Positions 2,987-57,540 of a DNA stretch of 64,000 nucleotides are shown here, one piece after another. The notes below the pieces were generated by a model that was not told the DNA's origin, ran no database searches, and was given only the letters and a program-made list of their open reading frames with translations. Each line of letters opens with the position of its first letter. Within the stretch, counting starts at the first letter, position 1. Both the position numbers and the translations under genes were made by a program. The DNA comes from a virus, in IMG/VR virus record IMGVR_UViG_3300013093_000028, positions 1 to 64,000 of that record; one strand, written 5' to 3'.

Positions 2987-3362
2987 AATAACCAAATACA
3001 TCGCGGATCAATATAAGCTGGCTAGTGATGAAAAATCACTGAGAAAACTAGTGTCATTATGGTGGGTAAATCCTAGGAAAAAAGCCAAAGGTGGCTTGAG
3101 ATTGACTGATGAAGGATTTGCTCGATTATCAGCACATATCAAATTCCATAAAGTTAAATTTACCGAAGGTCCTATTGAGTATAACAATCAGTTAATACTT
3201 CAATTAGATAATTTTATCAACTGCCCCTGGTATACAACCAAAAAAGAAATATTTGTGACCAACGACAAGATGGCTGTACAGTTGGTGTTGTTTTCTGGTA
3301 ACATTGCTCGATTCAGTCACGCTAAGGCAGAAAGCATTAAAAATCATTTGACAAAAACCTAA
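2970..3362 (+). CDS. Conserved phage protein of unknown function
   Basis: 130 residues. I start it at the ATG at 2970 rather than the TTG directly before it; GGTGAGAAG upstream serves as ribosome site. The C-terminal part, LDNFINCPWYTTKKEIFVTN followed by DKMAVQLVLFSGNIARF, is a recognisable conserved block of marine T4-like phages with no assigned role. It is basic and likely cytosolic. Its end overlaps the -35 region of the promoter for the MoxR gene, marking the end of this transcription unit. Confidence 0.7.
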   Translation: MIQKIEITKYIADQYKLASDEKSLRKLVSLWWVNPRKKAKGGLRLTDEGFARLSAHIKFHKVKFTEGPIEYNNQLILQLDNFINCPWYTTKKEIFVTNDKMAVQLVLFSGNIARFSHAKAESIKNHLTKT

Positions 3363-44730: not shown

Positions 44731-45061
44731 TATGGTGGCCGAATATAGGGCCCTGTACTCAGAATATGTGTCGCATTTGGCCAATGTGCATAACTACCAT
44801 TATGATTTCCTAGAAAAGAATTATACTTTGGATACTGGGCGGCAAGTTCGTGTCAGTCTCCAAAAAATGATGAATTATGAACGGCGACTCATACAACTGT
44901 CGTTACACATATATAGGATGAATAATCAAAACCTAAAAGAGATTCGTAGAGCTAATAAAAAAGGGTTTACTAAAACAGTCAAGGCTGGGCCAGGAAGACC
45001 TAAAAAAATAAAAACAAACAATGTGGACATACCAGGATCAAATAGTGGCGGAGTTACCTGA
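44687..45061 (+). CDS. Small protein with C-terminal AT-hook, unknown function
   Basis: 124 residues. The ATG at 44687 lies inside the end of gene 46 and is preceded by a good ribosome site (AAGGA); an inner ATG at 44732, just past the gene 46 stop, is an alternative. The first 85 residues are helical with many Tyr and His residues (EYRALYSEYVSHLANVHNYH). Residues about 95-110 hold GPGRPKKIKT, an AT-hook core that binds the minor groove of AT-rich DNA, well suited to this genome. It may be a DNA-binding accessory of the recombination complex; this is inference. It overlaps the GIY-YIG gene by 41 bases. Confidence 0.65.
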   Translation: MDSQVTQTAQTLLDNMVAEYRALYSEYVSHLANVHNYHYDFLEKNYTLDTGRQVRVSLQKMMNYERRLIQLSLHIYRMNNQNLKEIRRANKKGFTKTVKAGPGRPKKIKTNNVDIPGSNSGGVT

Positions 45062-45446
45062 AGACTGTATAGGCTTCGTGTACCTTATCACTAATTTAAC
45101 TACTGGTAGAAAATATATAGGCAAAAAATTAGCAAAATTTAGTAAAACGACCTACAAGACTGTAAAGTTAAAGAACGGCACAAAGAAAAAGAAAAAGATC
45201 AGAAGCAAAATAGATAGCGACTGGCAAACATATTATGGATCAAGCGATGAACTTAGTAAGGACATTGCGCTCTTAGGCACAGAAAATTTTAAACGCGAAA
45301 TACTCTACTATTGTCGATCAAAAGCAGAGTGTACTTATATTGAAGCCCGTGAACAGTTTTCTAGACGAGTTCTAGAATCTGATGAATATTATAACGGACA
45401 GATAAGTGCTCGCATACATGGCTCCCACATAAAAAATAAACTATAA
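45021..45446 (+). CDS. GIY-YIG family endonuclease
   Basis: 141 residues. The family motif appears as GFVYLITNLTTGRKYIGKK (about 18-36), followed after a Lys-rich insertion (KNGTKKKKKIRSK) by WQTYYGSSDEL, ENFKREILYYC and YIEAREQFSRRVL, which carries the expected catalytic Glu. GIY-YIG proteins in T4-like phages include Seg-type free-standing homing endonucleases; some have other nuclease roles. No separate DNA-recognition domain is visible, so the specificity is unclear. It overlaps the AT-hook gene by 41 bases and is followed by the structured non-coding region, which raises the question of a linked mobile unit. Confidence 0.75.
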   Translation: MWTYQDQIVAELPEDCIGFVYLITNLTTGRKYIGKKLAKFSKTTYKTVKLKNGTKKKKKIRSKIDSDWQTYYGSSDELSKDIALLGTENFKREILYYCRSKAECTYIEAREQFSRRVLESDEYYNGQISARIHGSHIKNKL

Positions 45447-45870
45447 TTCAGATAGGGCTCGCACCGGCCTAACTCGGGTGCCTAATGACAACTCTATAAA
45501 ATGAGGGACGGAAGTCTTGCCGCTGAAGCAAGCACTCATCTACTATCCTTAACAGGACGAAGATCGTAAAATTGCTTACGGTTTAGATGTTTGAAGATAA
45601 AGAATAAGCAAAAAGAAGGGAGAAAAACCCTACGTTTATGTATATGTTAGTGTATATACATAAGCCGCCGTTGAATGAAGACGGAGCTCGTGGTACCGGT
45701 CAACCGCCACTGTAATGCTCTAACACTAAGTGACTGAGGTAACTCGGATGATGCTCCTTCGCCCGCCAGGGCGAAGTGTGACCAAACAATCTGGATGATA
45801 CTAAACTTCTACGAAGTAAAAAATGCTTCAAGCGAAGCGTAGAAGCAATTGAGCTTTAGCTCAATTCCGT
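45447..45870 (+). ncRNA. Candidate structured non-coding RNA of unknown class
   Basis: About 430 bases with no plausible reading frame but a dense set of exact inverted repeats. Nested stem: ATGAG 45501-45505 with CTCAT 45535-45539, enclosing CTTGC 45516-45520 with GCAAG 45528-45532. CGTAA 45565-45569 with TTACG 45576-45580. Ten-base stem 45636-45645 with 45654-45663. CTGAG-GTAA-CTCGG 45734-45747 with a GNRA-type loop. CTTCGCCC-GCCA-GGGCGAAG 45757-45776. CTTCTACG 45806-45813 with CGTAGAAG 45838-45845, enclosing GCTTC-AAGC-GAAGC 45825-45838. Final hairpin 45847-45866. The region is richer in G and C than its neighbours. Strand is assigned from flanking genes. I could not match it to a known RNA family. 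Confidence 0.6.
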
Positions 45871-45871
45871 A

Positions 45872-45879
45872 TATAAATA
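45872..45879 (+). promoter_or_regulatory. T4-type late promoter box TATAAATA
   Basis: Exact TATAAATA right after the last hairpin of the structured region and 26 bases before the next gene, which also has a good ribosome site (AAAGGAAA). The final hairpin therefore may end an upstream transcript before this promoter starts a new one. Confidence 0.65.
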
Positions 45880-56537: not shown

Positions 56538-56637
56538 GTTGACTATGGGTAAATAATACTGTTCGCTCTTAATCGAGAGTTTATGCGGTCCCCGCCGCGT
56601 AGGCAATAGAACTGTCTATATTCAAGGAGAAAATAAA
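56538..56637 (+). promoter_or_regulatory. Leader region with two hairpins before the next virion gene
   Basis: After the gp23 terminator come GGTAAATAATAC (a loose late-box resemblance), CTCT 56566-56569 with AGAG 56576-56579, and GCGG 56585-56588 with CCGC 56595-56598, then CAAGGAGAA as ribosome site. The GC-rich second stem stands out in this AT-rich genome. Role unproven. Confidence 0.4.
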
Positions 56638-57540
56638 ATGGGACGTCCAATTAAAAAGAGATTTTTTGTAAGAGGTGGTGGCGCTACACCCACTGATGTA
56701 GTTCAATATGAGGGTGTTACAGTCAGTATTAATAATACTGGATCACACTATTCTTTAGGTGCTACAGCCAGTGTTTCAGCACCACAAGATGCAGCAGGGG
56801 TAACAGCCACTGTAGTTTTAACAGTTACAACTACAACAAACGTAGGTGGCGGTTATGGTGGTTTTATCAGTGCCGCAACAATTGCAAATCCAGGTTCTGG
56901 ATATAACGCAAACCCAACTGTTACAGTTGTTGCTCCAGCAACTCAAACTGCCACAGTAACAACAAGTTCAACTGCCACTATTACACTAAACGGTGTAAAT
57001 GGTATCTATGTAGGTATGCAGGCATCAGGAACAGGTATTAATGCCTCCACTACTTATGTTACAGCAGTTAATGTAGGTACAAATACAGTTACATTATCAA
57101 GAAACAATCAAGCAGGTAGTTTGATTGGTAATGTTATCACATTTAGTGATGTTGGTGCTAGTGCTACATTCACAGTTGGTTTAACTCACGTTGAAACAGA
57201 TACAAATACAATCGCTTGTACAGCTTATCTAACAACTGGTTCTAGTGCTGTAAGTTCTGCTATTATCAAACAAGAAGCTGCACATCGTTATCTAGTTGAA
57301 AACAACCAAGGTCGTGGTACATGTAAATTATCAACCGCCACTGTGTTAACAGCTGGTTTAATGACAATTACTGCTAAAGATACAAGTAATAATGTTTATT
57401 TTGTTACAAAATTGACTTCTAAGAAAGCACGTTTGTGGCAAAAATCTGGTAGCGGCTATTTGTTCAATAACGGACAAACTGTTCACTGGGTAACTGGAAC
57501 AAACGTAGTTTCAACATTAGTTTCTATTGTACTAAACTAA
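56638..57540 (+). CDS. Conserved virion protein downstream of gp23
   Basis: 300 residues with ribosome site AAGGAGAA. The opening MGRPIKKRFFVRGG and the end VENNQGRGTCKLSTATVLTA, GLMTITAKDTSNNVYFVTKL, NNGQTVHWV match small proteins found near head genes in T4-like marine phages. Between them is a beta-rich, Thr-rich region with NPGSGYNANPTVTVVAP (about 86-102), the same GxGYxxxPxVTV motif found in the 4215-residue protein. Flanked by terminators on both sides, so it is its own unit, probably highly expressed. Likely a head or decoration protein, but not proven. Confidence 0.65.
   Translation: MGRPIKKRFFVRGGGATPTDVVQYEGVTVSINNTGSHYSLGATASVSAPQDAAGVTATVVLTVTTTTNVGGGYGGFISAATIANPGSGYNANPTVTVVAPATQTATVTTSSTATITLNGVNGIYVGMQASGTGINASTTYVTAVNVGTNTVTLSRNNQAGSLIGNVITFSDVGASATFTVGLTHVETDTNTIACTAYLTTGSSAVSSAIIKQEAAHRYLVENNQGRGTCKLSTATVLTAGLMTITAKDTSNNVYFVTKLTSKKARLWQKSGSGYLFNNGQTVHWVTGTNVVSTLVSIVLN

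Follow-up and report, generated by a model that had tools for sequence, protein, structure and literature searches.

The stretch of viral DNA analyzed here (the window; positions 1 to 64,000 of IMG/VR record IMGVR_UViG_3300013093_000028) carries, directly behind the gene of a SegE-like GIY-YIG endonuclease, a region that is almost certainly occupied by a structured RNA (45447 to 45866). The initial annotation, made from the letters of the window, had described 45447 to 45879 as hairpin-dense, free of reading frames, and richer in G+C than its surroundings, and proposed a new phage-encoded RNA or the leader of a late gene. There is indeed no credible open reading frame (ORF) between the stop codon of the GIY-YIG gene (45446) and the next ORF (45905), and the region is somewhat richer in G+C (43% versus 38.6% in the window, the 90th percentile of 433-nucleotide [nt] stretches). 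Its folding energy, −123.5 kcal/mol compared with −103.2 kcal/mol in dinucleotide shuffles (z, −3.6), is better than that of 100 out of 100 shuffles.

Relatives of the GIY-YIG protein led to 80 viral loci, and DNA patterns led to further loci; a profile of the whole region (nhmmer) matched 217 loci near full length, from which 207 copies were extracted, with 163 left after removal of near-copies. Comparison of the 207 full-length copies, which come from uncultivated T4-like freshwater phages (lakes and rivers), identifies the region as a conserved structured RNA and not as a set of chance hairpins. The conserved element ends at ∼45805, and two further hairpins lie beyond it.

The covariance search against Rfam that the initial annotation had suggested identifies the 5′ part of the element as Polynucleobacter-1 (RF01718) and detects no family over 45593 to 45866. 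The 137 nt of this part fully cover model positions 1 to 141, with a score well over the gathering score, and the relatives score 83 to 119 bits. RF01718 is only the 5′ third of an element that is partly known and mostly new: novelty fails for these 137 nt and holds for the remaining two thirds, which belong to no Rfam family. Compared with Polynucleobacter-1, the element is ∼2.5 times longer and adds three pseudoknots (A, B, and C), a 12-bp hairpin, and a module with two repeats, R1 and R2. This unmodeled part is also present in nearly all pattern matches to the Rfam part. Polynucleobacter-1 was listed in 2010 as a likely RNA in Burkholderiales and in fresh water or estuary (Weinberg et al., PMC2864571), whereas the confirmed copies here are all on viral contigs except for the partial copy L209. 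Barring L209, no bacterial copy emerged when 84,980 species genomes were scanned twice for exact patterns, an approach that variants would escape. L209 itself (positions 1 to 171) is the 3′ half of an RNA of the same type as that in the window (type I), located terminally on a 4.5-kb contig that is binned as uncultured Bacteroidetes but is probably a phage contig. No annotated phage isolate was matched by BLAST, and the Rfam part was absent from three isolates with related GIY-YIG genes in a model search; therefore, the family is so far known from uncultivated phages only.

Strong compensatory change underpins the fold. More than 20 Watson-Crick pairs, many of them beyond the Rfam model, had an expected false count of ≤0.1 each in a covariation test that was modeled on the idea of R-scape, used a tree-based null, and was written for this analysis. 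Independently, pairs were counted in an alignment of 36 diverse copies against a structure that we specified: 84.7% of the cells were paired, versus 72.5% in shuffles and 37.5 to 42.2% in slid versions; two-sided changes occurred in 70 of the 103 tested pairs; and two-sided cells numbered 515, compared with 179 for shuffles and no more than 132 for slid versions. Drawing the structure on the sequence of the window biases one of the controls toward it, but the two-sided changes are independent of that bias. The homologs keep the pairing, the loss of which the initial annotation had named as evidence against a structured RNA, and together with the covariation they rule out a coding region or chance hairpins. 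The stems of RF01718 hold with compensatory changes in both analyses, and several crossing helices (pseudoknots) are backed by covariation (Table 1); the core of pseudoknot C, GGUAC..GG..ACCGCC, is invariant. Among the hairpins picked out from the single sequence, the 8-base stem with a four-base loop (CTTCGCCC-GCCA-GGGCGAAG) is genuine, and its hairpin form is conserved; the perfect hairpin ahead of TATAAATA is also genuine and recurs in relatives. Judging by the relatives, the nested CTTCTACG stem is better interpreted as two separate hairpins (45805 to 45817 and 45824 to 45847). The 3′ hairpins align more weakly and score lower than the rest of the structure. A non-Watson-Crick swap was also observed at 45546/45558, which are U..C in 124 and C..U in 39 of the 163 copies, with 17 joint changes and no mixed state.

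Table 1. Features of the structured RNA and its immediate neighbors in the window
Feature	Position	Strand	Evidence
Gene of a SegE-like GIY-YIG endonuclease, adjoining the RNA on its upstream side	45021–45446	+	Pfam PF19835, E = 2.8e-34
Whole structured RNA, including the two 3′ hairpins	45447–45866	+	217 relatives matched full length by nhmmer; likely transcript of ∼420 nt, ends inferred
Pseudoknot A: 45448–45451 with 45523–45526, outside/loop of the Rfam model	45448–45526	+	Two-sided changes in 4/4 pairs; 92% of cells paired
Polynucleobacter-1 domain (RF01718), sole part known to Rfam	45456–45592	+	cmscan, 88.8 bits (gathering score, 37)
Small H-type pseudoknot: 45456–45458 with 45467–45469, crossing stem 45461–45465 with 45477–45481	45456–45481	+	Pair count
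Stem 45537–45542 with 45584–45589, enclosing hairpins 45546–45557 and 45562–45583	45537–45589	+	Outer stem paired in 100% of cells; double changes
12-bp hairpin, outside Rfam	45634–45665	+	Two-sided changes in 11/12 pairs; 96.5% paired
Pseudoknot B: loop 45647–45653 with 45723–45729	45647–45729	+	Two-sided changes in 7/7 pairs; 98% paired
Pseudoknot C: 45670–45674 with 45700–45704, crossing 45684–45687:45717–45720 and 45690–45694:45706–45710	45670–45720	+	Covariation
Repeat R1 (ACUC-GGAUGAU-GC), address core 45746–45752	45742–45754	+	Identity covariation with R2
Spacer hairpin CTTCGCCC/GGGCGAAG between the repeats, then conserved GUGUGAC	45757–45776	+	Comparative
Repeat R2 (AUCU-GGAUGAU-AC), address core 45793–45799, 3′ end of the conserved region	45789–45801	+	Identity covariation with R1
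Two variable hairpins after R2: 45805–45817, and 45824–45829 with 45842–45847 around a GAGC..GCGA-like loop	45805–45847	+	Double changes in most pairs; poorer alignment
Terminal hairpin, probable end or terminator	45848–45865	+	Present in relatives; two-sided changes in 6/7 pairs, though just 59% of cells were paired
TATAAATA, box resembling a late promoter, for the next gene	45872–45879	+	Sequence

The cores of R1 and R2, two 7-nt direct repeats in the unmodeled 3′ part (GGATGAT in the window), covary by identity and not by complementarity. At core position 1 (45746/45793), all 163 of the 163 aligned sequences have either G in both repeats (87) or A in both (76), with no mixed copy, and 34 to 39 joint switches but no single switch can be placed on the tree. 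Position 5 is A in both repeats in 104 copies and G in both in 58, with one exception, and position 7 is UU, AA, or GG in 160 of 163. An alignment-free parse of 199 copies found the repeats identical in every copy at three core positions and in 196 at one further position. Eleven core haplotypes occur in type I; furthermore, the distant copies L094, L112, L114, L132, and L170 carry very different cores (by eye, GACGAA, GUCGAA, AGCGAA, GGUCAAG, and GGAAA) that are again common to both repeats. Because the whole block can be moved when phages recombine, the numbers of joint changes counted on the tree are maximum estimates, and the haplotype count is the safer guide to the minimum. This feature is invisible from one sequence. 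The CTGAG-GTAA-CTCGG hairpin with a GNRA-type loop that had been noted in the window is not conserved: its 3′ arm belongs to R1, whereas its 5′ arm varies freely.

The repeats also differ stably, with CUC in R1 versus UCU in R2 over the three bases ahead of the core and mostly G versus A at the base after it, which disfavors the copying of one repeat onto the other. These fixed differences are all transitions; therefore, both repeats could pair with one sequence by using G-U pairs. R1 and R2 are unpaired in the supported structure, and they probably are so in fact because local hairpins at either are no better than those with shuffled flanks. Other origins of the pattern were examined and rejected, namely, a placement of R1 and R2 in two hairpin loops (their flanks pair no better than shuffled ones), a stem between the sequences just ahead of the two repeats (significant covariation is absent), and sigma-70 −10 boxes as the source of GATAAT-like cores (the remaining haplotypes do not fit). 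A deletion was observed in one type I copy, L177 (11190 to 11434), which lacks ∼120 model positions (215 to 336) including R1 and retains R2. To our knowledge, identity covariation has not been described as a constraint for structured RNAs. Two unpaired segments that must carry the same sequence as each other might reflect identity recognition between the copies, by the RNA or its DNA, or an interchangeable two-copy address that sets the host partner engaged by the phage, a generalization that we consider possible but doubtful.

Two other RNA types are found at the same place behind the GIY-YIG gene in relatives. Type II (L011, L018, L024, L025, L041, L052, and about 90 more loci) has only the 3′ domain in common with type I and a different 5′ domain; type III (L015, L020, L037, L045, L064, and further loci), with the core GUAGGU-GGGAAAG-UCAGAGCCCAUUAGCA, shares little beyond the R1-hairpin-UGAC-R2 layout. 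No Rfam match was found in the type II (L024, L028, L041, and L052) or type III (L015, L020, and L045) loci that were tested. All 7 core positions are identical between the repeats in 87 of the 93 parsed type II copies, and the six discordant ones, not each of which was re-read, look like mis-parses of R1. In type III, the cores are identical in 13 of 19 copies, and five more differ only at the last base. Certain core sequences, or addresses, are common across types (GGAUAAU in I, II, and III; ACAUGAA in II and III), so the address is independent of the 5′ domain. On the GIY-YIG tree, RNA types interchange among close relatives, and phages with the GIY-YIG gene but without the RNA form one clade. 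A divergent type III copy in L073 (∼3185 to 3311) carries GGUGAAU in both repeats.

Of the 187 loci with enough sequence, 186 have a GIY-YIG gene upstream of the RNA, either immediately adjacent or no more than 1 kb away; the 40 loci that a script flagged against this placement mostly reflect overlaps of a few bases with the extraction window. A search of eight phage records with the Rfam model found a single copy in each genome. Downstream, a T4-type baseplate gene is present on the opposite strand in 113 of 116 loci, and the gene that follows the RNA varies from phage to phage, often lying on the other strand. This variability bears on whether the RNA is a cis-acting leader or riboswitch for the next gene, as the initial annotation had proposed for a late gene and as the "y" (possibly cis-regulatory) in the 2010 table would suggest for Polynucleobacter-1 (PMC2864571). 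A plus-strand gene does follow the RNA in the window, but the terminal hairpin and a separate late-type promoter box lie in between, and regulation in cis would leave the repeats unexplained; we regard it as very improbable. The failure of the initial annotation to match a transfer-messenger RNA (tmRNA), intron, or riboswitch was borne out, given that ARAGORN and Rfam detected neither tmRNA nor tRNA, intron models gave no match, and there is no constant class of downstream gene on the same strand. GIY-YIG genes are frequently associated with group I introns, which would be compatible with a homing intron remnant or another ribozyme linked to the GIY-YIG gene. However, Rfam intron models do not match even at E values of ≤1, the flanking genes and ORFs are intact, and the structure is kept across 207 copies, which makes such an origin almost negligible in probability.

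The constant neighbor also suggests that the repeats could be two sites for one sequence-specific RNA-binding protein, for example, a phage protein, the GIY-YIG enzyme itself, or a host nuclease that takes the RNA as a decoy substrate. Tandem sites for one protein would likewise vary in parallel, and the single clade of GIY-YIG phages without the RNA fits this possibility. Conversely, a protein that accepts both G and A should accept mixed G/A sites, which were never seen; near-identical GIY-YIG proteins accompany different RNA types and addresses (L020, type III, ACAUGAA; L025, type II, AGAUGAU); and L084 has matched repeats, although no GIY-YIG gene was found there. A protein partner of this kind is, in our judgment, quite unlikely.

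A complementary partner was sought in the RNA and in the phage DNA around it. No column that covaries by complementarity with the repeats was found in the RNA, in the 300 nt upstream, or in the 260 nt downstream; reverse complements of the cores within 6 kb were no more common than those of other haplotypes used as controls (97 versus 87). Complements of the extended repeat were limited to the antisense strands of the repeats themselves in four of eight phage contigs, and the other four had one to three scattered further sites each, except for G004, which had none. A second known RNA, freshwater-2 (RF02980, 56.4 bits), was observed in the window at 56565 to 56640, directly ahead of a plus-strand gene starting at 56640; it was rejected as the partner, given that no complementarity to the repeats was seen.

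Our preferred interpretation, held tentatively and at somewhat less than an even chance, is that the element is a trans-acting RNA that shows one 7-nt address twice to bind one kind of partner, most likely a host nucleic acid. Under this scheme, a structured phage RNA of ∼360 to 420 nt would be made behind or together with the GIY-YIG gene, and its pseudoknotted scaffold, the 5′ part of which is Polynucleobacter-1, would hold the 3′ module, where the same unpaired address is displayed on both sides of a hairpin. Both copies would then bind the partner in trans, as a sponge, decoy, or clamp, presumably with an outcome for the host or the phage. The two copies would change together because both must match a partner whose sequence differs between hosts. 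The strict matching of single transitions, together with the fact that every fixed difference between the repeats is a transition, makes a nucleic acid the best-fitting partner. Several points weigh against this interpretation. The partner may instead be a phage mRNA recognized by the 7-nt core alone, for which a looser whole-genome search allowing G-U pairs is too permissive; phage recombination makes the tree-based switch counts too high; and the joint switches (34 of 34 at the repeat position) are about as frequent as those at Watson-Crick pairs of the same RNA (38 of 41), which also fits a direct two-body constraint.

That similarity is what would be predicted if the repeats must match each other and not a third partner, for example, in strand exchange, template switching, an R-loop (in which one repeat, as RNA, lies on the DNA of its counterpart), or direct parallel RNA contact. 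The lack of a partner in the RNA, its flanks, the surrounding 6 kb, and, for the extended repeat, the phage contigs points the same way. However, gene conversion would also wipe out the stable CUC/UCU and G/A flank differences, and a clean R1-R2 deletion leaving one repeat was never seen, the deletion in L177 being different. We also know of no precedent for a mixed-sequence 7-nt parallel RNA duplex. Mutual matching of the repeats appears fairly unlikely.

If the two-address interpretation holds, the parallel evolution of the repeats marks the contact site with a partner, and the long-open function of Polynucleobacter-1 becomes directly testable. Through this analysis, an Rfam entry of 141 positions that had been poorly understood becomes a well-defined phage RNA whose comparative structure is complete, whose genomic place is fixed, and which has three exchangeable scaffolds and an active part that can be tested. 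More generally, covariation tools mainly seek complementary change, but identity change can also signal function.

Among known systems, GOLLD, ROOL, and OLE are likewise large RNAs of bacteria or phages that are rich in pseudoknots, have an unclear function, and form homo-oligomers by cryo-electron microscopy (PMC12286853); the RNA described here matches no Rfam model of GOLLD, ROOL, OLE, or HEARO and has no sequence match to the first three. RNA-based anti-CRISPRs (Racrs; PMC10651486) are also phage-encoded RNAs whose short repeats could correspond to a partner in the host, but in the present RNA, the repeats are 7 to 13 nt inside a large fold. The antitoxin RNAs of type III toxin-antitoxin systems have repeated units in common with it; here, by contrast, only a short address is repeated, in two copies, with no toxin gene recognized adjacent and no ToxN-like gene detected among the neighboring genes with Pfam or PHROGs. 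Finally, the IS110 bridge RNA also contains two short guide-like segments with a core in common, whereas the phage RNA, which has no transposase or recombinase alongside, shares the whole 7-nt core between its repeats and is present as one fixed copy per genome.
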